Shown here piece by piece: positions 1 to 13,011 of a stretch of DNA of 13,011 nucleotides. Made by a program: the position numbers and the translations under genes. Positions within the stretch are counted from its first letter, which is position 1, and the number at the start of each line of letters is the position of its first letter. The DNA is from Desulfobulbus sp. (GTDB lineage: Bacteria; Desulfobacterota; Desulfobulbia; Desulfobulbales; Desulfobulbaceae). The stretch covers positions 1-13,011 of the forward strand of contig JAUWAH010000020.1 in NCBI GenBank assembly GCA_030602145.1. Reading direction: 5' to 3'. The notes under the pieces are model-generated. The model did no database searches, was not told the origin of the DNA, and worked only from the letters and a program-made list of their open reading frames with translations.

Positions 1-1473
1 GTCGGCCAGCGGTCCGGCGACAAAGGGGGTGTTGGCCCAGGGCTGGCGGTTGACGCCGCTGGCGCCGATCTCGGCGGCGGTGGCCTTGGAGACGATGGAG
101 GCGCCGATGGCCACGCCGGCATCCATGGTCTTGGCCACCCAGATGGGCGGCATGGTGTTGGCATCGCGGCCGGAGTAGGTGATGACCTCGATCACCAGGC
201 CGGCCGGGTCGGCGTTGGCCGCCTTGTTGTGGTTGCCCACGGTCTCGGCTTTGAGGGTGCAGCGGGCGTTGGGGTGGGAAACCGGCACGCCGGTCATGGA
301 GTTGTCCCATACCCCCTGGAAATTGACGCCCCGCTCCGGCCGGGTCTCGCCATCGCCGGTCCAACGCGGCTTGCGCTGCTCGTCGACCAGGACGTTGGAG
401 AAAATGACCTCGGCGCCTGGCTGGCGCAAGCATTTCATCAGGTAGGGGTCGCCCTCCTGGTTGACGTCTTCGATGATGCCGAAGATGCCGATCTCCGGGT
501 TGACCGCCCGCAGGGTGCCGTCGGATTCGATCCACATCTGGGCGAGATCGTCGCCGATGAAGTCGCTGCCCACCATGGCGGTGGTGGTCTTGCCGCAACC
601 CGAGGGGGCGGCGCCGGCGAAATAGGTCTTGCGGCCGCCGGGACCGGTCATGCCGGTGATGAACATGTGCTCGGACAGTTCCTCGCCGTGGCGCCGATAC
701 ATGGCGCTGTCGGAGGCAAACCGGTGGTTCCCCTTTTTCATCAGCAGGGTGTTGCCGGCGTAGGTGCAGAGGAAGGAAAAGGTGGTCTGCCAACTCCGGT
801 CCATGTAAATCCGGGCCTTGGGCACATCTTCGGAACGATGGGTGCCTTCGGAGTGGACATTGGTGAAGAACTCGCCGCGGCGGGCGACCTCGGCGTCAAA
901 ATCAGCGTAGCAGTTGCGGTAGAGCAACTCGGCCGAATGCATGACATAGGTGGAGCTGGAGATCTCGATGGCCGGAATCGAGGCCTGCGCCCCCACCGGC
1001 CCGCGGCTGTAGAAGCCGACGAACATGGTCTTGCCGCGCATGATGCCGACCATGTGCTCGCGGATGTAGGCGTGGGAATCATCCCGCAGCTCCTTTTTGG
1101 CCAGCGACGACACCTCTTCATCGGGGTTGGCGATGTAAAAGGTCTGGTCGACCATCCGGCCCTGGTCTTCGGGCAGGTCGAAATGGATGGTATGATTGGC
1201 GATGGCCAGCGACTGTTCTTCGCCCTTCTCCAGACTCATCCGCCGGACCAGGGCCTGGTCCTCTTCGCTGCCGGTATGGATAAATACCTGATCGGGCTCG
1301 CACATGGCGATGGCGTTGGCCACCTTGAGCAGCGCCTCTTCGTTGCTGATCAGTGCCAGCCGGTTCTGCTGTTCGCCGTCGAGCCGCTGGGCAAACAGGT
1401 TTCTGGCCTTGTCGATGGTGGTCACGCCGCCAACCGCTGATAAGATATCAACGCCCTTATTGAACTCCAACAT
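1..1473 (-). CDS. pckG: Phosphoenolpyruvate carboxykinase (GTP), partial (3' end missing)
   Basis: The product would interconvert oxaloacetate and phosphoenolpyruvate with GTP/GDP in the cytosol, for gluconeogenesis or anaplerosis. The window holds 491 codons from the start; the frame stays open to base 1, so the last ~100 or more residues and the stop lie outside. Visible marks: a kinase-1/P-loop APSGCGKTTTAM at residues 289-300 (Cys293 is the reactive P-loop cysteine position), a GSDFIGDDLA metal-binding segment just after it (302-311), a YAGNTLLMKK substrate/metal region at 238-247, and NPEIGIFGIIEDVN at 325-338. The P-loop differs from the common SACGKTNLAM form, so this belongs to a divergent branch of the GTP family. 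The ATG at 1473 is preceded by GGAGG (1478-1482, minus strand) at a rather short 4-nt spacing. It is transcribed away from the rest of the window and is probably unrelated to it in function. Confidence 0.92.
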   Translation of the reverse strand, partial: MLEFNKGVDILSAVGGVTTIDKARNLFAQRLDGEQQNRLALISNEEALLKVANAIAMCEPDQVFIHTGSEEDQALVRRMSLEKGEEQSLAIANHTIHFDLPEDQGRMVDQTFYIANPDEEVSSLAKKELRDDSHAYIREHMVGIMRGKTMFVGFYSRGPVGAQASIPAIEISSSTYVMHSAELLYRNCYADFDAEVARRGEFFTNVHSEGTHRSEDVPKARIYMDRSWQTTFSFLCTYAGNTLLMKKGNHRFASDSAMYRRHGEELSEHMFITGMTGPGGRKTYFAGAAPSGCGKTTTAMVGSDFIGDDLAQMWIESDGTLRAVNPEIGIFGIIEDVNQEGDPYLMKCLRQPGAEVIFSNVLVDEQRKPRWTGDGETRPERGVNFQGVWDNSMTGVPVSHPNARCTLKAETVGNHNKAANADPAGLVIEVITYSGRDANTMPPIWVAKTMDAGVAIGASIVSKATAAEIGASGVNRQPWANTPFVAGPLAD

Positions 1474-1825
1474 CCTGCCTCCGTGGGATTATTTGTCGAG
1501 TTGACCCGAAGGAAAACCGTCCTGTAAAATATGTTGACAAGTTTGTAAACCGCACTATTTAGCTCGAAAATGCGGAATACGCAAACAGGAATGCGGATTT
1601 CCCGGCGATTTTCCCGACAACGGCCGGCCCTGTTGTCCGGAGTCCGTTCAGACCCAATGCTTTTGCCGGCACGGGGCGGCGGGGGTCGCCGAAATGAGCC
1701 GCCGGTGGTATGGTGGAGGCCACCAGCAGCGGTTTGTCCCCCTGGCCCGGATTTTGAAAGAACCGGTGGAGTGCCGGGAACCCCCCGCAATCCCCCATCG
1801 CCAACCTTCAACACCCCCTTGCCCC
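1474..1825. other. Divergent intergenic region between pckG and the FHA regulator
   Basis: This 352-base gap separates two divergently transcribed genes. The half next to pckG (1474-1570) is relatively AT-rich and holds the dyad described separately. The half next to the regulator (1620-1825) is very GC-rich and has no recognisable Shine-Dalgarno sequence or good promoter. The regulator's reading frame stays open back to an ATG at 1694, but the 44 extra residues are Pro/Arg-rich and resemble no domain, so I treat this part as non-coding. I see no RNA gene here. Confidence 0.5.
1533..1550. promoter_or_regulatory. Imperfect 18-bp dyad, possible operator or divergent promoter
   Basis: GTTGACAAGTTTGTAAAC is an inverted repeat matching at 14 of 18 positions (GTT-n-ACAA-nn-TTGT-n-AAC). 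It contains a -35-like TTGACA on the plus strand (1534-1539), followed after 16 bp by a weak TATTTA. On the minus strand it contains a -35-like TTTACA, followed after 17 bp by a weak TACAGG. It lies 60 bp upstream of the pckG start. A repressor site over a pckG or divergent promoter is possible. The -10 elements are poor, so the promoter call is weak, and I do not recognise the binding protein. Confidence 0.3.
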
Positions 1826-3679
1826 ATGCCCCAGGTCATTGTCTGTCAGGATGCCCAGGATTACCGGGTGGCGGAGTTCGCCACCTCGCTGACCATCGGC
1901 CGGGAAGGCGACAACGACATCGTTCTAGCCTCGCCCCAGGTCTCCCGTCGCCATGCCTCCATCGTCCTGCGGGAAAACGGCGACTACATGCTGTTCGATC
2001 ACGACAGCACCAACGGTGTCTGGATCGAGGACAGCAAGGTGAGCGGTGTCCGCCTCTCCCACGGCGTGACATTCCGGATCGTCAACCACGTCTTTACCTT
2101 CATCGACGAGCACCGGGAGGATGCCCGGGTCTTTGCCGGCCACGGTGTCGGGCTCCCGGCCGGTGACAGGCCGATCGATCCGGCAACCATTCTCTTTGGT
2201 CAGGAACAGATGTCGCAGGCCCTGGTTGCGGCGAGCGGCGACGAAGAAACGGTGCTTGCGCCTCTGGCCCACCTCCTGCGCACCTTGCAGACCGTGGACG
2301 ACGAGAGTCTTTTCGGCGACCGTCTCCTGGCCGGTGCCGTGGATCTGGTCGGGGCGGAACGGGGGTTTCTCGCCCTGCTCAACACCAAGAACGAACTCGT
2401 CTATACGGCCAGCCATCACTTCGATCCGCGTCGGGAGAGCCGGGATGTCAGCCAGGAGGTGGTCCGGCAGATGATGGACGGCGCCAGGTCGGTCCGGGTC
2501 GAAGGGACCGGGCCCGGCGATGGCCGCAAGGGCAGGGCGCAGGCCCAGTCGGTGCTCGGCGCGCCCCTGGTCCGTGACAACAAGACGGTCGGCTGCCTCT
2601 ACCTCGATCATCATCAGGCCGGCTTCTTCACCGGAGCCGGGCAGAGGAGCCTTGAGATCCTGGCCCTGCACGGGGCCATCCTGCTCGACAACCTCGCCGG
2701 CCGGCAACGGATGCACCGCGAACGGGAGTCCTTGAAATCACGCCTGGCCGCCAAGGACGAGACCATCGTCCGCAGTGAGAAAATGGTCAAGCTCTACGAG
2801 GACATCCGCACCATCGCCGCCATCAATGTGCCGGTCTTCATCCAGGGGGAGGCGGGCAGCGGCAAGGAGCACGTCGCCGCGGCCCTGCACGGGTTTTCTG
2901 GGCGCAAGGGGGCCTATATCCCGCTCAACTGCGCCGCCATTCCCGAGGGCATCTTCGAAAGCGAACTGTTCGGCTCCAAGAAGGGTGCCTACCACGAAGC
3001 GATCGACAAACCGGGCAAGCTGGAACTGGCCGAGGGAGGCACCCTCTTCCTCGACGAGGTGGCGGACATGTCGCTCACCCTGCAACCCAAGTTGCTGCGG
3101 TTTCTCGAAAATGGGGAAATCACCCGGTTGGGTGATACCCGCACCCGCCGGCTCGATGTGCGGGTGGTGACCGCCACCAACCGGGACGTGGCCGCCATGA
3201 TCCGGGCCGGCCAGTTCCGCGACGATCTGTTTCAGCGATTGTCCTGCTTCACCCTCAAGGTCCCGCCCCTGCGGGAACGGATCGAGGATATCGAGCCGCT
3301 GGCCCGATATTTCCTGAATAAATTCGCCGCCGAGTACAACTGGCAGCCGCCCCGGGTCAGCGACGGCGCCCTACAGCTGCTGGCCCGCTCCCAGTGGCCG
3401 GGCAATGTCCGTCAGTTGCGCAATGTCCTCCTCCGCTTGGCGGTGCAATCCCAGGGGCGACCGATCACCGAACGGGACATTCTTTCCCTTTCCGAAGAGT
3501 TTGCCGCCATGGAGCCGGCCCGGATCGAGGTGTTTCCCAGCCTGGAGGAGGTGGAGAAGAATCATATCCGGGCGGCCCTGGAACGGGCCGGCGGTAATAT
3601 TTCCGACGCCGCCGCCCTGGTGGGCATAGCCCGCTCCACCCTCTATCAGAAGATGAAGAAGTACGACATTGCCGGTTGA
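1826..3679 (+). CDS. FHA-GAF-AAA+ sigma54-activator-type transcriptional regulator with Fis HTH
   Basis: The predicted product is 617 residues. An N-terminal FHA domain (about 3-93; GRE, SRRHA at 40-44, STNG at 61-64) should bind phosphothreonine peptides. A GAF sensor-like domain follows (about 146-291), then a sigma54-type AAA+ module (about 321-546) with Walker A GEAGSGKE (341-348), Walker B GGTLFLDEVAD (404-414) and an arginine-finger segment FRDDLFQRLS, then a Fis-type HTH (about 575-617). The sigma54-contacting GAFTGA loop is replaced by GAYHEA (387-392), which is unusual. Family knowledge says such proteins bind upstream enhancers and remodel sigma54 RNA polymerase. The near-consensus -24/-12 promoter downstream is the obvious target, by inference. 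The start is uncertain: the ATG at 1826 fits the FHA boundary but has no Shine-Dalgarno; an in-frame GTG (1766) or ATG (1694) would add residues without a recognisable domain. The linker after the FHA holds EETVLAP (Thr142), a possible phosphosite. Confidence 0.88.
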   Translation: MPQVIVCQDAQDYRVAEFATSLTIGREGDNDIVLASPQVSRRHASIVLRENGDYMLFDHDSTNGVWIEDSKVSGVRLSHGVTFRIVNHVFTFIDEHREDARVFAGHGVGLPAGDRPIDPATILFGQEQMSQALVAASGDEETVLAPLAHLLRTLQTVDDESLFGDRLLAGAVDLVGAERGFLALLNTKNELVYTASHHFDPRRESRDVSQEVVRQMMDGARSVRVEGTGPGDGRKGRAQAQSVLGAPLVRDNKTVGCLYLDHHQAGFFTGAGQRSLEILALHGAILLDNLAGRQRMHRERESLKSRLAAKDETIVRSEKMVKLYEDIRTIAAINVPVFIQGEAGSGKEHVAAALHGFSGRKGAYIPLNCAAIPEGIFESELFGSKKGAYHEAIDKPGKLELAEGGTLFLDEVADMSLTLQPKLLRFLENGEITRLGDTRTRRLDVRVVTATNRDVAAMIRAGQFRDDLFQRLSCFTLKVPPLRERIEDIEPLARYFLNKFAAEYNWQPPRVSDGALQLLARSQWPGNVRQLRNVLLRLAVQSQGRPITERDILSLSEEFAAMEPARIEVFPSLEEVEKNHIRAALERAGGNISDAAALVGIARSTLYQKMKKYDIAG

Positions 3680-3703
3680 CGCCGGCCGCCCGCCGGTGTG
3701 GAT

Positions 3704-3742
3704 GAGATCCGGACAGGGGCCCGGCCATGCTGTCCGGATTTC
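3704..3742 (+). terminator. Terminator-like hairpin after the FHA regulator
   Basis: The arms are GAGATCCGGACAG (3704-3716) and CTGTCCGGATTTC (3730-3742), forming a 13-bp stem with one G-U pair and a 13-nt loop, 24 bases after the regulator's stop codon. A pyrimidine-rich, T-rich stretch follows only after about 11 bases (from 3754), so it is not a textbook intrinsic terminator. It probably ends or processes the regulator transcript and insulates the downstream operon. Confidence 0.6.
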
Positions 3743-3809
3743 CTACAGCACCAATATTTTTCCCTTTCTCTCTCATTTCAGGCTTTTATCGGGATGCCTC
3801 CCGGGGCGT

Positions 3810-3826
3810 TGTTCGATTATCGAACA
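3810..3826. promoter_or_regulatory. Perfect 17-bp palindrome, candidate upstream activator (enhancer) site
   Basis: TGTTCGATTATCGAACA has two perfect 8-bp arms around one central base. Its centre is about 163 bp upstream of the predicted sigma54 start site (3981), the usual range for enhancer sites of sigma54 activators. A 17-bp odd-centred palindrome with TGT/ACA ends is compatible with a dimeric Fis-type HTH, such as that of the regulator at 1826-3679. The assignment to that protein is inference; a different repressor or activator could use it. Confidence 0.5.
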
Positions 3827-3901
3827 CTTCCCTCTGCTTTTTCCACCCCGTTTCGGTCCGCGTGGTCCGGTCAGGGGGGCCATGTGGTGGCGCACTCTTT
3901 T

Positions 3902-3914
3902 TAACTCATTGAAA
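3902..3914 (-). promoter_or_regulatory. IHF-like site between enhancer and promoter
   Basis: The minus strand reads TTTCAATGAGTTA, which fits the IHF consensus WATCAANNNNTTR with one mismatch, and has an A/T-rich tract on its 5' side as IHF sites often do. It lies between the palindrome at 3810-3826 and the -24 element at 3957, where IHF bends DNA at many sigma54 promoters. AT-rich DNA gives chance matches, so confidence is modest. Confidence 0.35.
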
Positions 3915-3954
3915 TATAATTCTATTTTTTAATCGGTGGCGGCCGATGTCTTTC

Positions 3955-3970
3955 TGGCACCGCATTTGCT
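3955..3970 (+). promoter_or_regulatory. Sigma54 (-24/-12) promoter of the amyloid-like operon
   Basis: TGGCACCGCATTTGCT matches the sigma54 consensus TGGCACGNNNNTTGCW at every defined position except the G after TGGCAC. The invariant GG (3956-3957) and GC (3968-3969) have the required spacing, with G at -24 and C at -12. The predicted start is near 3981, giving a leader of about 56 bases before the ATG at 4037. It lies just downstream of a sigma54-activator-type gene. This is one of the best-supported regulatory calls in the window. Confidence 0.82.
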
Positions 3971-4036
3971 CAAGCATGGCCAGCAGTGATTGCGTCCCAC
4001 ACTTTACACACCAAACACCTAAATGGAGGTTGTACC

Positions 4037-4873
4037 ATGCTGAAAAGAACCGTTTTTGCATCCGCTCTCATCTTCGCCATGGCCACCGGCACCGGCACGG
4101 CTCTTGCCGATCGTGACGACAACACCCTGCGCGGCTCGTTCCGTCAGCACAAGATCAAGGGGGTGACGGCGGTCCAGCACGGCGCCATCCATCATAACAC
4201 CTACGCCTCGCAGCCGATCACCAACACCAACACCAACATCATCACCGTCAATACCTCGGCCACCCAAACCGCCACGGCCACCGCCACCGCGCCGGCTACC
4301 CAGACCGCCACCGCCACTGCAAGCGCCAGCGGCACCGCCACCACCCCGGCCGACACCGGTTCAAACGTCGACGACACCGCGACGTCGTCCACCGACACCA
4401 CCAGCGGCACGGACACCACCGCCGCCACCGGAACGGATACCGGCACCGACACCGCAGCATCGACCACCGACACCGGCGTCGAAACCACCGCCACCGCCAC
4501 CCAAGAGGGGCAGGACGATGCCCAGAAGGGGATGAAGGCCGAAATCCGCAACGAGATCAAGCGGGCCGGCAATATCAGCAGCACGATTAAGAACGGCAAC
4601 AACAACCAGGCCAACGCCGCCTCCATCTCCATGAGCGGCCAGGCCCAGTCCACCGAATCGGTCATCAACCGGGTCAATACCAGCGGCAACATCAGCAGCA
4701 CGATCAAGAACGGCAACAACAACCAGGCCAATGCCGCCTCCATCTCCATGGGCGGGTCCATGGCGGTCAAGGGCCGGGTGATCAACGAGGTGGAAAACAC
4801 CGGCAACATCTCGGCATCTGTGGGCGGTGGCAACAACAACATGGCCAACGCCGGCTCCATCGCCGTCAACTGA
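4037..4873 (+). CDS. Secreted Asn/Gly-repeat protein, putative functional-amyloid subunit (first gene)
   Basis: The product is 278 residues. A Sec signal peptide (about 1-25, likely cut after ALA) is followed by a short mature N-terminus, then a Thr/Ala/Asp-rich low-complexity stretch (about 75-158), then three tandem 39-residue repeats whose GNNN cores start at residues 187, 226 and 265. The repeat reads roughly GNISSTIKNGNNNQANAASI, then M. The core keeps the GxxNxA pattern of curlin repeats but replaces the flanking glutamines; it also recalls the GxGNQQxN part of Pseudomonas Fap repeats. Secreted repeats of this type beside a CsgG-like exporter suggest an extracellular fibre subunit; this is inference. 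The ATG at 4037 has GGAGG at 4025-4029 (7-nt spacing), so it is preferred over an in-frame ATG at 3986 that would add residues before the signal peptide. It is the first gene behind the sigma54 promoter. Confidence 0.85.
   Translation: MLKRTVFASALIFAMATGTGTALADRDDNTLRGSFRQHKIKGVTAVQHGAIHHNTYASQPITNTNTNIITVNTSATQTATATATAPATQTATATASASGTATTPADTGSNVDDTATSSTDTTSGTDTTAATGTDTGTDTAASTTDTGVETTATATQEGQDDAQKGMKAEIRNEIKRAGNISSTIKNGNNNQANAASISMSGQAQSTESVINRVNTSGNISSTIKNGNNNQANAASISMGGSMAVKGRVINEVENTGNISASVGGGNNNMANAGSIAVN
4259..4510 (+). repeat. Low-complexity Thr/Ala/Asp-coding stretch
   Basis: About 84 codons consist almost only of ACC, GCC, GAC and related codons, giving a Thr/Ala-rich then Thr/Asp-rich segment between the N-terminus and the amyloid-type repeats of the first subunit. 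It is probably an extended, acidic, flexible linker. Such DNA is prone to length change by slippage. Confidence 0.7.
4568..4867 (+). repeat. Three tandem 117-bp coding repeats
   Basis: Copies begin at 4568, 4685 and 4802, a 117-bp (39-codon) period. The conserved 66-bp cores of the first two copies (4568-4633 and 4685-4750) differ by only three bases, all synonymous (AAT/AAC, ATT/ATC, AAC/AAT). The third copy (4802-4867) is diverged but keeps GNIS and GNNNxAN. The near identity of two copies suggests recent duplication or gene conversion. Confidence 0.85.
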
Positions 4874-4919
4874 CCGGCATGATTCCTCGCTGGAACCAAC
4901 AGGTTCAGAGAAAGATGCC

Positions 4920-4957
4920 GCATCCCGTGCCGGGTCCACAGCCGCGGCACGGGATGC
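4920..4957 (+). other. Perfect intercistronic hairpin between the two subunit genes
   Basis: The arms GCATCCCGTGCCG (4920-4932) and CGGCACGGGATGC (4945-4957) pair over 13 bp without a mismatch around a 12-nt loop, in the 128-base gap between the first and second repeat-protein genes. No T-tract follows. It could stabilise the 3' end of the upstream message, act as a processing point, or partly terminate transcription, so that the first subunit is made in excess over the rest of the operon. Confidence 0.65.
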
Positions 4958-5001
4958 TCCCCGACAGGGAAGGTCACACCATCGCTCCACGGAGAACGAA
5001 C

Positions 5002-5598
5002 ATGAAAAGCGTACACATCCTGCTCATCACCGCCCTGCTCGCCCTGCCGGCCGCGGGCCAGACGGCCGACCTCCTCGGACTCAAGGCGGAAAACCGGTTG
5101 CAGGGTGGCGAATACCGCGCCACCACCAAGGGCAACAACAACACCGCCAATGCCGCCTCGATCAACCTGTCCGGCAGCAAGGCGCGGGCCGTCAGCAACA
5201 GGGTCCAGGCCACCGGCACGGTTTCCGCCTCGGCCGTCGGCAACAAGAACACCGTCAACAGCGCTTCGGTGCAGATGGTCAACAGCCAGGCCAGCCAGGT
5301 GTCCAACACAGTCAAGGTCGGCTCCATCAACAATGCCGTTCAGGGCAACAACAACATCTCCAACATCGGTTCGGTGCAGATGGTCAACGCCAAGGCGGGC
5401 CGGGTGACCTCAGAGGTGACCGGCGAGGCGCTCACCGGCGTGATCGACGGCAACAACAACCGGCTCAACATCGGGTCGGTGCACATGAACGGCGCCCAGC
5501 GCGGCGACGTGACCACCAAGGCCGACCTTGGCAATGTCTCGGTGTCCATGTCCGGCAACAATTCCAGCGTGGCCGTCGACTCGGTGGTCGCGCAGTAA
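5002..5598 (+). CDS. Secreted Asn/Gly-repeat protein, putative second amyloid subunit or nucleator
   Basis: The product is 198 residues with a signal peptide (about 1-22). Nearly all the rest consists of five repeats whose GN cores start at residues 44, 80, 115, 150 and 185, a period of 35-36. The pattern is GNNNxxNxxSVxM followed by a charged/Ser/Val segment. The first repeat (GNNNTANAASI) is almost the same as those of the protein encoded by the gene at 4037; later ones are looser, and the last (GNNSSV) is degenerate and ends the protein. It lacks the Thr-rich linker. By analogy with CsgA/CsgB or FapC/FapB it could be the minor subunit or nucleator, but the sequence does not say which role each has. 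The ATG at 5002 has GGAG at 4991-4994 with 7-nt spacing; an upstream in-frame ATG (4879) would place residues before the signal peptide and cross the hairpin. Confidence 0.85.
   Translation: MKSVHILLITALLALPAAGQTADLLGLKAENRLQGGEYRATTKGNNNTANAASINLSGSKARAVSNRVQATGTVSASAVGNKNTVNSASVQMVNSQASQVSNTVKVGSINNAVQGNNNISNIGSVQMVNAKAGRVTSEVTGEALTGVIDGNNNRLNIGSVHMNGAQRGDVTTKADLGNVSVSMSGNNSSVAVDSVVAQ
5131..5595 (+). repeat. Five 35-36-residue protein repeats in the second subunit
   Basis: The repeats are clear at protein level (GN cores 36, 35, 35 and 35 residues apart) but much diverged in DNA, unlike the near-identical copies in the upstream gene. This suggests an older array. Confidence 0.75.
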
Positions 5599-5618
5599 AC
5601 GGCAGGGAGGACAGGACG

Positions 5619-5948
5619 ATGCGCGCTTCCATGACGATCCTGCTGCTCACCCTGCTGCTCACCGGCGGTTTGGTCGCCACCACCGCCGTCTGCCGGGCCG
5701 ACGACCTCAACGACGGCATCGAGGCCGACGAAACGAGCGTGCAGTACGGCGAAATGGGCGGTTCGAGCAAGAACTTCTCGTACCTCACCCAACGGGCGAG
5801 GAGCAAGGCCCGCTCCGGAACCGGTGACGTCGTCCTCTCCGACAGCGGCGCCCTCAACAGTGTCATCCTCGACGCAGGGGCACAGATCAACGGCGACATC
5901 ATCATCATCGATGATTCCAAGGGCGATAAAACGGTCATCGCCAAATGA
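5619..5948 (+). CDS. Small secreted protein of unknown family in the amyloid-like operon
   Basis: The product is 109 residues with a hydrophobic signal peptide (about 1-27, likely cut at CRA/DD; the Cys25 context TTAVC is not a lipobox). The mature part is short: an acidic N-terminus, a basic stretch (about 58-66), and a C-terminus of alternating hydrophobic residues with Gly/Asp turns (VVLSDSGALNSVILDAG, then INGDIIIIDD), which suggests a small beta-structure. I do not recognise it as CsgE or CsgF. A periplasmic or surface accessory role in export or fibre assembly is a guess from position. The ATG at 5619 has GGGAGG (5605-5610) at 8-nt spacing, 20 bases after the upstream stop. Its stop overlaps an ATG of the next frame (ATGA at 5945-5948), so the genes are tightly coupled. 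Confidence 0.8.
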   Translation: MRASMTILLLTLLLTGGLVATTAVCRADDLNDGIEADETSVQYGEMGGSSKNFSYLTQRARSKARSGTGDVVLSDSGALNSVILDAGAQINGDIIIIDDSKGDKTVIAK

Positions 5949-5959
5949 CGGGACACACC

Positions 5960-7417
5960 ATGAACAAGACGGCTGCATTGAAGAAAGGTCGGGCCCGGCG
6001 TCTGCCGGGCCTGCTGTCGGTGATAGCGCTGGTGGCGCTCAGCCTGGGCGGCTGTGCCAAACTCGATCCCCGCCAGGTGGATGTCGACCTGCCCTCGGAC
6101 ATGCCCGAGGTCAAAGAGACCAGCTTCGACAAACCCCTAGCCGAATTGGGCCGGATGACCCAGATCTACGGCAAGCGGGTCTATATCCAGGGCAAGGACG
6201 TCGCCGACTTTACCGGGCTGTCCGCCTACGGGTATGGCGAGATCCCCCGCGACATCACCGAAATGACCAAAAGCGCCCTCAACGCCATCGGCGGCAACGT
6301 GGTCTACATCCCCTACAGTCCGGTGTTCATCAACAACCAGATGGTGACCGGCTACTCCAATTTTCAGGGGAAGCTGATCCCGGACATCGTCCTCTCCGGC
6401 GGGATCACCGAATTTGACCGCGGCCTCGAAACCCGGGGCAGCAACACCGATTTCGGCGTCACCACCAAGCCCTTCAACGTCAATGAGTCCTGGGTGCCCG
6501 GCGATTACATCTCGGTGGATTACAACCAGGAGGACAAGAGCAGCCTCGCCCGGATTACCCTCGATTTCAACCTGCTCGATTTCCAGACCATGTCCGGCGT
6601 GGCCCGGATGCAGACCGTCAACTCGATCAACGTCTACAAGGCGGCGGCGGAAAAGGAACTCGGTTTCACCATCTTCGGCCCCACCTTCGGCCTCAAGGGC
6701 ACGGTCAAGAAGGTCCAGGGACGGCATGCGGCCATCCGGCTTTTGGTGCAGACCAGCGTCTTGCAGATCGTCGGCAAATACCTCTATCTGCCCTACTGGA
6801 AACTGATCCCGGAGATGAAGCCGGATCCGGTGGTCATGGACAAGATACGACAGGATTTCAGGAATCTGAGTCAGTCCGACCGGATCGGCGAGATACAGAC
6901 CTGCCTCTACCTCAAGGGGTACGACGTCCCGGTCACCGGCCGCATGGATGCCAAGACCCAGGCGGCACTGGCCCGGTTCAGGACCGACAACCCGTCCGCC
7001 CAAACCGGCGGCGACACCGAACTCTATGTCGAACTGTGGAGTTCGCTGGGCGACAACATGGAGCAGGTATCTGGCCGACGTGAGATGCTGGCCCGCATCA
7101 TCAACGGAGCCGACACCACCGAAAGGGTGGCGGCGGTACCGGCACCGGTGAAGAAGAGTCCGGCCAAGACCGAGGTGGCCAATCAACCCGAGGCCGCCAA
7201 GCCGGCAACGAAAAAGACCCCGTCCCCGGAAAAGACCGCCACCGGTCCGGCCGCCCTGGCCCAGGGCAAAGCCGAGCCGGCCCGCAAGGAGCAGTCGGCG
7301 GCAGCCAAGGAGCAGGACAAGCGGGAAGAGGTGGCGCAGGTGGCACGCACCCAGCCGATCCTGGGGAGCAAATCGACAGCGGAGGCTCTGATCAATGAAC
7401 GACGCATGGCCGAATAG
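5960..7417 (+). CDS. csgG: CsgG/HfaB-family outer-membrane secretion lipoprotein with C-terminal peptidoglycan-binding-like segment
   Basis: This is the predicted outer-membrane secretion channel of the operon, 485 residues. The signal peptide ends in a lipobox, LSLGGC (Cys32); the next residue is Ala, consistent with outer-membrane sorting. Residues ~55-285 align by eye with E. coli CsgG: an N-terminal VYIQGKDVADFTG-type segment, SGGITEFDRGLE where CsgG has its conserved GxIxxYxxNV strand, ARITLDFNLLDFQTMSG, and the late stretch before KYLYLPYW. An extension follows: residues ~303-345 look like a PG_binding_1 domain (IGEIQTCLYLKGYDVPVTGRMDAKTQAALARFR), then a Lys/Ala/Pro/Glu-rich tail (~390-465). 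Canonical CsgG (about 277 residues) lacks both, so this is a fusion. I chose ATG 5960, with CGGGA six bases upstream; ATG 5945 overlaps the preceding stop and would add five residues. The last 23 bases overlap the next gene. Confidence 0.87.
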   Translation: MNKTAALKKGRARRLPGLLSVIALVALSLGGCAKLDPRQVDVDLPSDMPEVKETSFDKPLAELGRMTQIYGKRVYIQGKDVADFTGLSAYGYGEIPRDITEMTKSALNAIGGNVVYIPYSPVFINNQMVTGYSNFQGKLIPDIVLSGGITEFDRGLETRGSNTDFGVTTKPFNVNESWVPGDYISVDYNQEDKSSLARITLDFNLLDFQTMSGVARMQTVNSINVYKAAAEKELGFTIFGPTFGLKGTVKKVQGRHAAIRLLVQTSVLQIVGKYLYLPYWKLIPEMKPDPVVMDKIRQDFRNLSQSDRIGEIQTCLYLKGYDVPVTGRMDAKTQAALARFRTDNPSAQTGGDTELYVELWSSLGDNMEQVSGRREMLARIINGADTTERVAAVPAPVKKSPAKTEVANQPEAAKPATKKTPSPEKTATGPAALAQGKAEPARKEQSAAAKEQDKREEVAQVARTQPILGSKSTAEALINERRMAE

Positions 7418-7718
7418 TTTCAAGGGCGGACTGCTGCTGGGTGTGCTGGTGGCGGGACTTGCCGTGCTGCTCATGGGCGCGGCGCACCATGACGGCCCTG
7501 TCCTGGCTGTGCCGGTACACGAGCCCAATGTCGACCGGGCGGTGGCCCCGCTCTCCAACACCGGTCGGTACCAGATCGCCACCTGGGAGGGCGGCGGCGG
7601 TTACGGTGCCTTTGTCCTCGACACCGCCACCGGGACCACCAAGGTGGCCTACAGTTCCGTCAAGGGACCGGGCGGCAAATCGGTCAACAACCTGGGCAAG
7701 TCCTTTGACAAGATGTAA
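7395..7718 (+). CDS. Small membrane-anchored protein of unknown function
   Basis: The product is 107 residues. One hydrophobic segment (about 10-29) serves as a signal anchor or uncleaved signal; no lipobox is seen. The periplasmic part has a compact motif RYQIATWEGGGGYGAFVLDTATGTT (in pieces, residues 58-82), a Tyr/Trp/Gly-rich beta-hairpin-like pattern seen in many small uncharacterised exported proteins, then a Gly/Lys/Ser-rich tail. It starts inside the end of the CsgG-like gene (overlap 7395-7417). GGAGG at 7381-7385 lies 9 bases before the ATG and supports this start. Its tight coupling suggests work with the secretion channel. I cannot assign CsgE or CsgF to it. Confidence 0.75.
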   Translation: MNDAWPNSFKGGLLLGVLVAGLAVLLMGAAHHDGPVLAVPVHEPNVDRAVAPLSNTGRYQIATWEGGGGYGAFVLDTATGTTKVAYSSVKGPGGKSVNNLGKSFDKM

Positions 7719-7741
7719 AATGGGCGCTCATCGGGTGATAA

Positions 7742-7758
7742 GCGGAGGAAGGCTCCGC
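7742..7758 (+). other. Small hairpin before the VWA-like gene
   Basis: GCGGAG and CTCCGC form a 6-bp stem around a 5-base loop in the 106-base gap between the small membrane protein and the VWA-like gene. No T-tract follows, so it is not a convincing terminator. I see no good promoter in this gap, and the downstream gene is probably co-transcribed. Confidence 0.35.
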
Positions 7759-7824
7759 CACACCCCAAGGCCAATCAGTCAACTGCACAACCGGGTTGAA
7801 CGCTCGGAGAACAAGGAGTCGGAG

Positions 7825-8976
7825 ATGAAATGGTGGAACAGATTGCGGCCGGTGGCGGCGGAGTTGATCCTTCTTATGCTGGTCCTGGTTGCTGCCCTGG
7901 TGGCCAACGTCGGCCATGCCGCGACCGTGGGTCCCAAAGGCTACGGACTGAAGATCTTTCGGGTCGAATCGGGACTGTACCCCTTTGTCCATGTCTACAT
8001 GCGCACCTTTGACCAGGAGATGAATCCCCTGGTCAACCTCAACGTCCTCAACATCGGCGTCATGGTCGAGGGCCGGGCCTATGATCCGCGCAAGAAACAA
8101 TATATCATTCAACCTCTGCGCGGTCGCGAAGAGGCGACCCGGTCGATCCTGGTGCTCGACACCAACAAGGCCCTGAAAGGCCCCGATTTCGAAGCCATGG
8201 TCCGGGCCGCCGCCCGGTTCATCGACGCCAAGCGGCCCCAGGACCAGGTGGCCCTGCTGGCTCTGGACAACAGCAGCGAAGGCTATTCCATGCTCTCCAA
8301 CTTCGACCGGGAGCCCTCTGTTCTCGGCCGTCGCCTGGCCGATCTCCAGCCGCGCGCCGACAAGACCAGGTTGTACGACGGCGTAGCCGCCGCCATGCAG
8401 ATGGCGGCCAGCGCGGTGGGCAGCGATTCGTCCAGCGATGTCGAGTATGTGGTGTCCAGCTCGATCATCATCCTGGGCAGCGGCCGTGACGACGACAGCG
8501 CCATCAGTCGTTCCGATCTGATGACCCGGATCTCCGGCCTGGCCATTCCCACCCCGATCTACGCTCTCGGGTTCAGCGGCCAGGAGAGCAGGGAGCACCG
8601 CAATCTCCAGGCCCTGGTGAAGAACTCGTTCGGCAAATTCTATCCCATCGGCTCCGCCCACGAGACCATCACCCGGGCCATCGAGGATATCCAGCAGGTC
8701 ATGCAGAGCGATTACGTGCTCACCTTCCGGGCCTACATTCCGGTGGACGGCGGCCGGCACAATGTCAAGGTCGGGGTCGAGTATCCCACCGGCAGCGGCA
8801 TCATGTACTATGACAGCTCCACCTTCGAGGCCATCGAGCCGCCCACCTTTCCCCGGATTATCGACGCGCAGCAGAAAATCGACATAGCCATTCCTCCTCT
8901 GGGCAAGGATGAGGAGTTGTACCTGAAGAACCCTTTTGCACCGGCGGGTCCTGCCCAGCCGGGCGGTAAGAGCTGA
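7825..8976 (+). CDS. Exported VWA-like protein with degenerate MIDAS
   Basis: The product is 383 residues. An N-terminal hydrophobic segment (about 12-33, possible cleavage after GHA) should export or anchor it. Residues ~105-295 have the order of a von Willebrand A domain: SILVLDTNKALKG where the DxSxS metal motif should be (Asp112 kept, both serines lost), KTRLYDGVAAAM (Thr181, the second metal-loop threonine), SIIILGSGRDDD where TDG is usual, then PIYALGFSG and a Leu-rich helix. The metal site is therefore probably weak or absent, and any binding would be metal-independent. Residues before and after (~40-100 and ~300-340) look like beta strands. It could be an adhesive or scaffold component in the periplasm or at the surface. 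The ATG at 7825 has AAGGAG at 7813-7818, followed by TCGGAG, and is followed by the signal sequence. It is the last gene of the operon. Confidence 0.8.
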   Translation: MKWWNRLRPVAAELILLMLVLVAALVANVGHAATVGPKGYGLKIFRVESGLYPFVHVYMRTFDQEMNPLVNLNVLNIGVMVEGRAYDPRKKQYIIQPLRGREEATRSILVLDTNKALKGPDFEAMVRAAARFIDAKRPQDQVALLALDNSSEGYSMLSNFDREPSVLGRRLADLQPRADKTRLYDGVAAAMQMAASAVGSDSSSDVEYVVSSSIIILGSGRDDDSAISRSDLMTRISGLAIPTPIYALGFSGQESREHRNLQALVKNSFGKFYPIGSAHETITRAIEDIQQVMQSDYVLTFRAYIPVDGGRHNVKVGVEYPTGSGIMYYDSSTFEAIEPPTFPRIIDAQQKIDIAIPPLGKDEELYLKNPFAPAGPAQPGGKS

Positions 8977-9005
8977 GGCCGAAAACGGCCGGGCAGATCC
9001 CGGCC
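8977..9005 (+). other. Two overlapping, mutually exclusive hairpins
   Basis: Immediately after the stop codon, GGCCG-AAAA-CGGCC (8977-8990) forms a tetraloop hairpin. GGCCGGG (8987-8993) and CCCGGCC (8999-9005) form a second stem that reuses four bases of the first. They cannot both form. They may protect the operon's 3' end or help the terminator just downstream. Confidence 0.5.
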
Positions 9006-9021
9006 TACCCTTTCACCCATG

Positions 9022-9064
9022 AGGTGCTGTCTCCGCCATCTGCGGCCGGAGGCAGCACCTTTTT
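9022..9064 (+). terminator. Rho-independent terminator of the amyloid-like operon
   Basis: The arms AGGTGCTGTCTCCG (9022-9035) and CGGAGGCAGCACCT (9047-9060) pair over 14 bp with one T-G wobble around an 11-base loop, followed directly by TTTT (five T in a row counting the last stem base). This should end transcription from the sigma54 promoter. The next gene starts only 19 bases later. Confidence 0.85.
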
Positions 9065-9082
9065 GCCGATGTATCGACAGGC

Positions 9083-11680
9083 ATGGATTCTCGCTCAGTC
9101 GCCGCTCAGCCCGCCGCCTATCTGGTCGCCCTGGACACCGGGTGCGCCAACCGGGAATATCCGCTTACCGCTCCCGGTGACCTGATCGTCGGCCGGGACG
9201 GCGGCTGCGACATCGTGGTCGCCGGCGCCACCGTCTCCCGACGCCACGCCCGTCTGTTGGCCGGCGGTGCGGCAGGCTGCCGCCTGGAGGATCTGGGCTC
9301 AACCAACGGCGTGTTCGTCAACGGCCGTCGGATTGCAGCCAGTACCGAGCTGCACGACGGCGACCTGATCGGTCTCGGCGCCACCGCTCCCCATTTTCGC
9401 TACCAGGCCCACAGCAGCCGGGACGCCCGCCGATTCACCCTGGCCGCCAAGGATCGGTGGGTCATCGGCCGCAGTCCGGACTGCGACCTGCCGCTGCCCT
9501 TCGAACCGACGGTGAGCGGTTGCCATGCCCTCCTTGAGAACCGCGACGGCATCCTCCATCTCAGCGACAACCACAGTCTGAACGGGACCTGGATCAACGG
9601 TCAGGCCCTGCGCAGAACCACGATCTCTCCGGCCGATACCGTGGTCATCGGCTCGACCCATTTCCGTTTCCGCCTCGAAGCAGACGGTTCGCTCTCCGTC
9701 CGCCAGCGGGAAAGCGGTCAGGCGCTCCGGCTGGAGGCGATCGACCTGCACCGGACAACGTCGGGCGGTGGCAGGCTGCTGCTTGACACCATCACCCTGT
9801 CCATCGCCCCGGGCGAATTCGTTGGCATCCTCGGCCCCTCGGGCGCCGGCAAGACCACGCTGCTCACCACCCTGGGCGGGGTCGTCCGGCCGGATCAGGG
9901 CCGGATTCTGCTCGACGAAATCCCGCTGGACAGCGCCTCGGCCATGTTTCGCAACGCCATCGGCTATGTGCCCCAGGACGACATCCTCCACCCCGAACTG
10001 ACCGTGGAGGCCAGCCTCGAGTACGTGGCCCGGTTGCGGCTCTCCCCCGACCTGCCTCCCGTCCGGCGGGCCGATATCGTCGACGCCACCATCGAAACCC
10101 TGGGATTGGGCCAAGTGCGGCGCATGCCGATCCATCGCCTGAGCGGTGGCCAGCGCAAGCGGGTTTCCATCGGTGCGGAACTGCTCGTCCGTCCCAGCCT
10201 GCTCTTCCTCGACGAGCCCACCTCGGGCCTCGATCCCAGCACCGAAGAGCGGCTGATGCGCCATTTCCGGTCCATGGCCCACAACGGCACCACCGTGGTC
10301 ATCACCACCCATGTCCTCTCCAACCTGGACTTGCTCGACAAGGTGGCCATCCTCGCCCAGGGGCGGCTGGTCTTTTTCGGTTCGCCCGCCGAGGCGCTGG
10401 TTTTTTTTGACGGGGAAGGGACGGGGCTCAGCAGTCCGGCCCGGATTTTCGACCTACTCACCGGGGAAGGGCAGGCGTCCGACCAGGAAGGCGGATCGAT
10501 CCTGGATGAGATTGCCGATCGCTATGCCCACCGCTATGCCACCTCCCCGTACCGACGGGAGGCCATCGAGCGGAGACTGTCGGCGGCGGCCCGGGCTGTG
10601 CTCGACGACGGCGAGGCCGGTTCGATGGAGTCGTCGGGACGGACCCGAAGCCTGCGGCTGGCGGACGCCGTTCGTTCGCTTCGCCGAACGTGGTCACCGG
10701 TGGAGTCGCTGCGCTCTTTTTGGATACTTTCCCAGCGGCATCTGCATATCCGGGCCAGTTCCACCCGGCGGTTGCTGCTCTTTTTCCTGGTGCCGGTGGT
10801 CCTGGGCCTGGTGACCCTGTCGCAGCACATCGCCGGCGTGCCGGCCGACGAGACGATCCGCGCCCGGAAAAGCGAACTCGGGCAAGCGGTGACCCAGGGC
10901 GGCCCGGGCATGGAGCCGCTGCTCAAGCACCTGCTGTCGCCGGCCGGCACCCATGATCCGCGTTCCGCCGTCGACCTGCTCCATGGTCTGCACCATGAAG
11001 GGCTGGCCAACCTGCCGGTGCCGATGAGCGTCCTGTTGATGATCGTCATGACGGCGGTGTTCTCCGGCACCCTGATCGCCTGTCTGGAGATCTCCACCGA
11101 ACGGTCCATTTATCGCCGGGAACGGCTGTCCCATCTGCGGATAATCCCCTATCTGGGCTCCAAGCTCCCCTATTGTCTGGCCATGACCGGGTTGCAGTGT
11201 CTGCTCTTTGTGGCGGTCTGCTGGCTGGATCCGTCGTTGCGGCAGGCAGCCTTTGTCCCGGTCTGGCTGGTGATGGTGGCCGTGGCCTGGAGTTCGGTGG
11301 CCATGGGACTGCTGCTCAGCGCCGCCGATCCGACCGGGGGACGGTTGTCGGTGATGCTGGCCGTGGCGGTGGTGCTGCCGCAGTTACTGCTGTCCGGTGG
11401 CCTGGGACCGGATTTTTTCGGCCACATGCCCACGGTCATGCGCTGGGTGGCTGATCTGCTGCCGGCGCGCTGGGGGCTGGAGATGCTCGCCACCGCCCTG
11501 TTCGGCTCGCTGTCGGGGGAGGGGGCGGGCTGGATCCCGGCCTTTATCCGGGAAACGATAGGTTTTGACTTCGGTTCGGGCGTTTATTATAGTGGAGCCC
11601 GTGCCCTGTTGATCCACTCCGTCCTCTGGCTGTTCCTCTGCGCAGGATTTCTTCGCTATCGCGATTTTCGCTCATGCTGA
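9083..11680 (+). CDS. Double-FHA ABC half-transporter (ATPase fused to ABC-2/ABCG-type membrane domain)
   Basis: The product is 865 residues. FHA1 (~13-107: VGRDG, SRRHA at 52-56, STNG at 73-76) and FHA2 (~118-198: IGR at 128-130, SGCH at 145-148, LNG at 166-168) each keep the residues expected to bind phosphothreonine. The ATPase (~215-450) has Walker A GPSGAGKTT (251-259), Q-loop Gln298, signature LSGGQ (353-357), Walker B LLFLDE (373-378) and switch His410. A charged linker leads to a membrane domain with about six helices (first ~564-582, then ~647-858). The layout matches mycobacterial Rv1747, an FHA exporter phosphorylated by its neighbour kinase PknF; here too a Ser/Thr kinase gene follows, overlapping by 7 bp. 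The substrate cannot be read from sequence. The ATG at 9083 has no convincing Shine-Dalgarno and lies just behind a terminator, so its promoter is unclear. Confidence 0.9.
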   Translation: MDSRSVAAQPAAYLVALDTGCANREYPLTAPGDLIVGRDGGCDIVVAGATVSRRHARLLAGGAAGCRLEDLGSTNGVFVNGRRIAASTELHDGDLIGLGATAPHFRYQAHSSRDARRFTLAAKDRWVIGRSPDCDLPLPFEPTVSGCHALLENRDGILHLSDNHSLNGTWINGQALRRTTISPADTVVIGSTHFRFRLEADGSLSVRQRESGQALRLEAIDLHRTTSGGGRLLLDTITLSIAPGEFVGILGPSGAGKTTLLTTLGGVVRPDQGRILLDEIPLDSASAMFRNAIGYVPQDDILHPELTVEASLEYVARLRLSPDLPPVRRADIVDATIETLGLGQVRRMPIHRLSGGQRKRVSIGAELLVRPSLLFLDEPTSGLDPSTEERLMRHFRSMAHNGTTVVITTHVLSNLDLLDKVAILAQGRLVFFGSPAEALVFFDGEGTGLSSPARIFDLLTGEGQASDQEGGSILDEIADRYAHRYATSPYRREAIERRLSAAARAVLDDGEAGSMESSGRTRSLRLADAVRSLRRTWSPVESLRSFWILSQRHLHIRASSTRRLLLFFLVPVVLGLVTLSQHIAGVPADETIRARKSELGQAVTQGGPGMEPLLKHLLSPAGTHDPRSAVDLLHGLHHEGLANLPVPMSVLLMIVMTAVFSGTLIACLEISTERSIYRRERLSHLRIIPYLGSKLPYCLAMTGLQCLLFVAVCWLDPSLRQAAFVPVWLVMVAVAWSSVAMGLLLSAADPTGGRLSVMLAVAVVLPQLLLSGGLGPDFFGHMPTVMRWVADLLPARWGLEMLATALFGSLSGEGAGWIPAFIRETIGFDFGSGVYYSGARALLIHSVLWLFLCAGFLRYRDFRSC

Positions 11681-13011
11681 ACGATTCCCGAACCCTCATC
11701 GATCCAGGCAGTGTTGCCGCCTCTCCACCGCCGGCCCTCGTCGACGATGGCGAAGAACTGATCGGCGGTCGGTATCGCCTCTTGCGGCCCTTGGGCGAGG
11801 GCGGCATGGGCAACGTCTATCTGGCCGCCGATCGGGTGCTGGCCCGCCAGGTGGCGGTGAAGACGGTTCGCGCCGAGTTGAGCGACAACGAGGAGGTGCG
11901 TGCCCGGATCAAGCGCGAGTGCCGGTTGCACGCCGCCATCGGGACCCATCCCCATATTATCACCCTCTTTGACACGGTCGAGGAAGGGGGACACATCTAC
12001 CTGGTGATGGAGTACTTCGAGGGGGAAACCCTGGCCAACCTTTTGGCCGGAGCCGGTTCCCGAGAAGCGCTGCCCCTGGAGCAGGGCTTGGACATCATCC
12101 GCCAGATCCTGCGGGCCCTGGCCTGTATCCACAGTCGGGACATCGTCCATCGCGATATCAAGACCTCCAATATTCTCCTCCAGCACCAGGCCGATGGCCG
12201 GTTCCTGGCCAAACTGACCGATGTCGGCATCGCCCGGGCCGAAGACGAGCCCGGTGTCCTCACCCGGCTGACCGCCCTGGGCATCCAGGGACCGGGAACG
12301 CCGATGTACATGGCGCCGGAACGCATCGATCCACAGACCTTCGGCGAGGTGTGTCCCGCCTCGGATCTGTATGCGGCCGGGGTCATCCTCTTCGAACTGC
12401 TGGCCGGCAAACCTCCTTTCATCGGCACGATGACCGAGGTCTTCACCGCCCACCTGATGCAGCAACCCGCCTTGGAGCGGCTGCCGAACGGAATCCCGGA
12501 TTCCCTGCGTGCGATTGTGCGCAAGGCCCTGGGCAAGCAGCCCTCCGAACGGTTCCAGGACGCCGAGTCCTTTCTGGCCGCCCTGGCCGATATCGACGGC
12601 AGCACCACGCTCCTGCCCAACCACGCCGGGGCGGAGGAAGCCACCGTCCTGGCGGCTGTGGAGGAGGCCGTTCTGCCTGCAGTCATCGCCGAAACCACCA
12701 TGCTCGATCCGGCTCAGGGCCAGGGGCGTCCGCGCCTCCGCTGGAAGCAACCGGGCCGTCGCTCGTTGGCCGCCGCGTTCGCGCTCCTGCTGGTGCTCAC
12801 GGTGGGCTTGGTGGCCTACCGGCTCAGCGACGGGCCGGAGAAACCGCTGACTGATCCGGCGGCCGATTCGGCCGTCACCACGACCCTTCCACAGGAACAG
12901 GCTGCACCGGCACCGGCCGTGTTCGCGGACAGCCTCAATCCGCCGCAGAAGGAAGGGTCGGCCCTGGAGGTGGTCGAACAGGCCCGCCTCAAGGGGAGCG
13001 CTGAAACCGTG
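11674..13011 (+). CDS. Membrane-anchored Hanks-type Ser/Thr protein kinase, partial (3' end missing)
   Basis: The 446 codons seen run open to the window edge. The kinase domain (~34-305) has glycine loop GEGGMGNVY (41-49), VAVK with Lys63, HRDIKTSN (159-166; Asp161, Lys163, Asn166) and APE (214-216). The metal-binding DFG reads DVG (183-185): Asp kept, Phe replaced by Val. The activation segment is Thr-rich. A basic stretch (RPRLRWK) precedes one transmembrane helix (~365-383), then a Pro/Ala/Thr-rich, presumably periplasmic part. The juxtamembrane linker holds three TT/TxL motifs (Thr311/312, Thr324, Thr341/342), plausible autophosphorylation sites for FHA docking. The ATG overlaps the transporter's stop (ATGCTGA), implying coupled translation, and the transporter's FHA domains are its likeliest partners. 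It could also phosphorylate the FHA regulator at 1826-3679; that is inference. Confidence 0.92.
   Translation, partial: MLNDSRTLIDPGSVAASPPPALVDDGEELIGGRYRLLRPLGEGGMGNVYLAADRVLARQVAVKTVRAELSDNEEVRARIKRECRLHAAIGTHPHIITLFDTVEEGGHIYLVMEYFEGETLANLLAGAGSREALPLEQGLDIIRQILRALACIHSRDIVHRDIKTSNILLQHQADGRFLAKLTDVGIARAEDEPGVLTRLTALGIQGPGTPMYMAPERIDPQTFGEVCPASDLYAAGVILFELLAGKPPFIGTMTEVFTAHLMQQPALERLPNGIPDSLRAIVRKALGKQPSERFQDAESFLAALADIDGSTTLLPNHAGAEEATVLAAVEEAVLPAVIAETTMLDPAQGQGRPRLRWKQPGRRSLAAAFALLLVLTVGLVAYRLSDGPEKPLTDPAADSAVTTTLPQEQAAPAPAVFADSLNPPQKEGSALEVVEQARLKGSAETV

Follow-up and report, generated by a model that had tools for sequence, protein, structure and literature searches.

What kind of system is encoded by two Asn/Gly-rich repeat proteins and a putative outer-membrane lipoprotein that share an operon in Desulfobulbus sp.? 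The operon lies within 13,011 nucleotides (GenBank assembly GCA_030602145.1, contig JAUWAH010000020.1, positions 1 to 13,011), hereafter the window. Its genes carry the working names R1, R2, C, G, E and VWA, and related loci are numbered from L001 onward. Open reading frame (ORF) coordinates checked in the window gave a compact plus-strand operon, R1-R2-C-G-E-VWA, in agreement with an initial annotation made from the DNA sequence, which had proposed a separate, possibly undescribed branch of extracellular amyloid systems. The conserved gene set, the predicted CsgG fold and the distinctive repeats of that proposal stood, but the amyloid nature is unproven. The set looks like a so far undescribed relation of two amyloid systems, curli and Fap: a conserved gene set having a channel of predicted CsgG fold and its own class of repeat protein is real, and what explains it best, although unproven, is the formation of surface fibres. 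We consider it likely that this is a CsgG-type (nucleation-precipitation-like) export operon with a substrate class of its own that stacks into surface fibres. No description of the gene set was found in the open-access literature, subscription papers and preprints lying outside the scope of the search.

The channel candidate G

G (5960..7417, plus strand; 485 residues) is the only lipoprotein-like channel candidate among the window proteins, and its Cys32, at a lipobox-like position, is invariant in a 79-row alignment. G had been called a CsgG-family lipoprotein. This held for the predicted fold and for the cysteine, but not for the sequence family, as a Pfam scan gave no match of G to PF03783 (CsgG). 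Upon structure comparison of the G model CsgG was clearly top-ranked, and its matches were the only ones to extend over model residues 47-289, aligning 206-214 of them. The CsgG link of G, which Pfam does not detect, rests on structure prediction, and by that prediction G is a protein of CsgG fold at about residues 48-289 (nucleotides 6101-6826). PF03783 also gave no match in the window's own genome (controls matched in 4 of 14 genomes); it is a broad family that matches 116 of 198 genomes of the phylum.

G could instead be a structural lipoprotein of the outer membrane that forms no export pore, the repeat proteins then acting in the periplasm. We regard this as very unlikely, given both the clear first rank of CsgG, with its sole coverage of the model, and the long paired strands at residues 143-169, 184-207 and 219-238, which lie where membrane hairpins would be expected.

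Beyond the fold G carries a C-terminal extension with a weak PG_binding_1-like stretch (residues 306-344, nucleotides 6875-6991). The G protein of Methylotuvimicrobium buryatense 5G (L068:10016-11554), unlike that of the window, has a C-terminal DUF4384 domain (E 1.8e-27), and several G relatives bear the source name 'DUF4384 domain-containing protein'.

Repeat proteins R1 and R2

R1 (4037..4873, plus strand; 278 residues) is an exported protein with a Thr/Ala-rich region followed by three C-terminal Asn/Gly repeats of 39 residues (about 4568-4873), and R2 (5002..5598, plus strand; 198 residues) is an exported protein of 35-36-residue repeats. Signal peptides here and below were called by eye from the N-termini. 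R1 contains three copies of the core GxxNxxNxx[SA] (spacings 39 and 39) and R2 four (spacings 36, 35 and 35), against shuffled-sequence means of 0.13 and 0.11, respectively. The tandem repeats of 35-39 residues that had been reported are thus real. Neither protein matched a Pfam family, so assignment to a known non-amyloid family, which had been put forward as a possible refutation, found no support.

Structure prediction had been suggested for both repeat proteins; of the two, R2 was modelled. The model, built from R2 and 15 relatives, was confident and all-beta with about four strands (read by eye) per 35-residue turn, and we are confident in calling R2 a predicted beta-solenoid. For R2, the disordered non-stacking chain that had been named as a further possible refutation was thus not what the prediction gave. 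No prominent fold emerged when the model was compared with the PDB. This supports a beta-solenoid generally rather than FapC or CsgA specifically. Secretion, fibre formation and an amyloid nature of R1 and R2 are putative; for R2 a solenoid monomer is predicted.

Among complete repeat proteins 85 of 93 end in S[VI]xx[EKQNDRH] at one repeat position, compared with 15 of 2507 other mechanical ORFs. A fixed end at a single point of the repeat argues that there is no separate C-terminal cap domain. For CsgA, open-ended solenoids and half-repeat ends are described (PMC10192328). In several loci (L025, L029, L043, L048, L050, L051, L060, L076 and L080) a short repeat protein is joined by a far longer partner of up to 1302 residues, the C-terminus of the longer partner being NKNSVVxK, N[KV][ND]SV or close to these, as if a major subunit were accompanied by a minor or anchoring subunit. 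In L074 three near-identical repeat proteins of 98 residues each are encoded one after another (8472-9593), ahead of C and G.

Given these proteins, are they curlin-like? As in curli, a predicted CsgG-fold outer-membrane lipoprotein is encoded together with signal-peptide repeat proteins predicted as beta-solenoids and with an adjoining gene for a small exported partner. The differences from curli are several. The repeats have 35-39 residues versus about 23 in curlin, G lies outside PF03783 and has its extra C-terminal extension, and control is of a sigma-54/FHA type rather than by CsgD. PF07012 (curlin) had no match in R1 or R2 at E up to 1, nor in the window's own genome. The curlin spacing X6QX10Q occurs once in R1 and never in R2, and at least two such sites were present in 6 of 103 related repeat ORFs. 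The view that the repeats are longer than, and distinct from, curlin repeats was borne out. Pfam detected neither CsgE nor CsgF among the nine window proteins scanned, and CsgE was also absent from the window's own genome (an assembly 72% complete), CsgF not having been searched genome-wide. At another locus of the same phylum, L094, a PF03783 gene has as its neighbour a frame in which the QX10Q spacing recurs 20 times, which suggests that true curli systems occur in the phylum too.

The resemblance to Fap that had been noted proved partial. Repeat length (39 residues in Fap), the Asn/Gly-rich core and the presence of a pair of repeat proteins are shared. However, the minimal Fap repeat, published as X15GX4NX3GX6NX7 (PMC3792158), is not: its motif GX4NX3GX6N has no match in R1 or R2 and one in the 103 related repeat ORFs, which favour NX3GX5N (381 sites in 70 of the 103 proteins). 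The channel candidate also differs, having a predicted CsgG fold where Fap has the trimeric barrel FapF, alongside the protease FapD, a comparison made without a search by any Fap model.

A third comparison is with the Caulobacter holdfast anchor HfaABD, where likewise a CsgG-like lipoprotein serves non-canonical surface proteins. HfaB resembles CsgG, and HfaA and HfaD reach the surface in an HfaB-dependent manner (PMC6707917). R1 and R2 might similarly be exported by G as short solenoid adhesins or anchors that form no long fibres. The window solenoids are indeed short (three repeats in R1 and about four in R2), and adhesins are among the best rows of the VIA-align structure comparison of R2. 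Nevertheless, with no search aimed at holdfast genes, we judge this unlikely, as relatives carry repeats over as many as 1302 residues in paired short and long proteins, and ends that lack a separate cap domain suit stacking. Unlike this G, which does not match the family, the Caulobacter control genome matches PF03783.

Distribution of the gene set and its partners

Is the gene set kept together elsewhere? A G profile run over a GTDB contig collection gave 101 loci, and the counts below rest on the best 80 of these. The names among them include Desulfobulbaceae, Desulfobacterales, Desulfuromonadaceae, Nitrospirota, Methylococcales, one Campylobacterota and one Elusimicrobiota; rows labelled Myxococcota by the tree tool were named only 'Deltaproteobacteria', and bins may contain foreign contigs. 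In the G tree the rows were largely grouped by phylum (13 label changes versus a shuffled mean of 31.5). All 11 Desulfobulbaceae-type loci with enough flank (L001-L006 and L008-L012) have the full set R1-R2-C-G-E-VWA, L007 and L015 being left out since each is cut off on one side. The gene set also extends well beyond Desulfobacterota, and conservation in relatives, on which the earlier proposal depended, is therefore clear. The cultured strains Desulfobulbus elongatus DSM 2908 (L004) and M. buryatense 5G both have C and G together with repeat genes. The G profile matched 8 genomes in a phylum sample of 297, four strongly (E 1.1e-148 or lower); the other four matches are distant or limited to the peptidoglycan-binding-like part. 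Within the window's genus 6 genomes, its own among them, were compared, and 2 matched.

A repeat ORF lies upstream of G in 57 of 68 loci with 1500 nucleotides of flank. The repeat-unit model was trained on 16 loci, and without these the count is 41 of 52. Three of the 11 loci lacking an upstream repeat ORF (L028, L029 and L044) have repeat ORFs downstream instead. Of 103 repeat-unit matches 102 were on the G strand and no more than 7 kb away from G; a control of 6393 reversed ORFs gave no match. The model fits the window proteins weakly (R2, 11.2 bits; R1, 2.6 bits); in direct two-unit alignment both are in register with it.

For the small exported protein C (5619..5948, plus strand; 109 residues), 77 loci had 600 nucleotides of upstream flank, and 67 of these have C no more than 700 nucleotides before G. 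Training of the C model used the window and 40 of these loci; for loci outside the training rows the figure is 29 of 37. Its mature protein begins [DNE]x[DNSEK]DG[IML] in 62 of 68 cases. By eye its C-terminal part resembles one repeat unit, to which the unit model gives a weak fit (best 9.7 bits, E 0.0024). We propose that C may be a CsgF/CsgB analogue.

E (7395..7718, plus strand; 107 residues), which overlaps the end of G, has an N-terminal hydrophobic segment and no assigned family; of the 63 loci that have 3 kb of flank after G, 35 carry E no further than 3.5 kb downstream of it. An LPP20-like gene is downstream of G in 32 of 63 loci. Many loci that are not of the Desulfobulbaceae type encode an LPP20-like exported protein in the stretch from G to E, as in L024 (11394-12161), where Pfam assigns LPP20. 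VWA (7825..8976, plus strand; 383 residues) is an exported protein matching PF13519 at 28.8 bits (cut-off 27), as its VWA-like description had implied, and phmmer found its relatives only in L001-L012 among the 80 loci.

These neighbours bear on whether G exports something else, such as a toxin (a suggestion made for Neisseria MafA/MafB), with the repeat proteins incidental. An outer-membrane lipoprotein pathway for MafB has been reported in a text which mentions CsgG (PMC7738311). However, it is repeat protein, C and G that recur across phyla, whereas VWA is confined to Desulfobulbaceae-type loci, and E and the LPP20-like gene are each found in roughly half of those loci whose flank is long enough. 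Although other neighbours were not systematically clustered, we hold such a cargo to be highly improbable.

For the favored fibre-export reading we infer the following route. G would be an outer-membrane lipoprotein channel, presumably an oligomeric ring, which its C-terminal extension may tether to peptidoglycan. R1 and R2 would reach the periplasm via their signal peptides, cross the G ring unfolded and fold outside as uncapped beta-solenoids, the open ends of which could allow stacking into fibres. C would act like CsgF/CsgB: its N-terminal start would sit in the mouth of the channel, while the C-terminal portion would template the first solenoid. E and VWA would be accessories.

CsgG-type secretion is known mainly for curlin. 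On balance we think that this is a third surface-fibre export class beside curli and Fap, although we hold this broader claim less firmly. The class would comprise a CsgG-fold channel, the small adaptor or nucleator C, whose mature N-terminus is conserved, and Asn-ladder solenoid subunits with open ends, turns of 35-39 residues and a fixed C-terminal end. It would occur in sulfate reducers, Desulfuromonas relatives, Nitrospirota and methanotrophs, among others, and sequence models for curlin, CsgG and Fap would have overlooked it. If so, the pore-plus-solenoid design serves several substrate classes, here in a lineage apart, which has a repeat and a partner protein of its own and lives in a broad range of environments. 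Such a class could help to explain biofilm fibres in those sulfate reducers, nitrifiers and methanotrophs whose genomes have neither curli nor Fap genes. Its solenoid, with a turn longer than that of curlin, would also be available as a scaffold.

Control region and flanking genes

A single promoter and a single terminator had been predicted for the operon, and both predictions were supported. A sigma-54 -24/-12 motif, TGGCACCGCATTTGCT (3955..3970, plus strand; core GG-N10-GC, score 11/12), lies 66 nucleotides before the R1 start. The motif is found 55-81 nucleotides before R1 in the window and in 12 of 12 Desulfobulbaceae-type loci with R1, whereas 0-1.6% of mononucleotide shuffles of each region score as high; it is uncommon in the other loci (6 of 44 versus 0.95 expected). 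A sigma-70 scan listed no plus-strand site just upstream of R1. Downstream of VWA, a long hairpin followed by five T (9021..9064, plus strand) forms an intrinsic terminator; the folding z of this region is -4.0, a stability that 0 of 200 shuffles reached, and a generic scan allowing loops of up to 8 did not list the hairpin.

The probable operon regulator, a sigma-54 activator with Pfam FHA, GAF_2, Sigma54_activat and HTH_8 domains (FHA-GAF-AAA-Fis), is encoded at 1694..3679 (plus strand), and relatives occupy the same place in Desulfobulbaceae-type loci with enough upstream flank. Beyond the terminator are an ABC-2 type ABC transporter that also carries two FHA domains (Pfam; 9083..11680, plus strand) and a Ser/Thr protein kinase (Pkinase, E 5.5e-50; 11674..13011, plus strand), open at the window end. 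Both genes (9083-13011) likewise follow the operon in such loci with enough downstream flank. The sigma-54 motif, the adjacent FHA activator and the nearby kinase together suggest phosphorylation-controlled expression. In Desulfobulbaceae the activator would switch on transcription, probably under the kinase. At the other end of the window an open-ended minus-strand ORF (1-1473) resembles what we take to be a GTP-type phosphoenolpyruvate carboxykinase.
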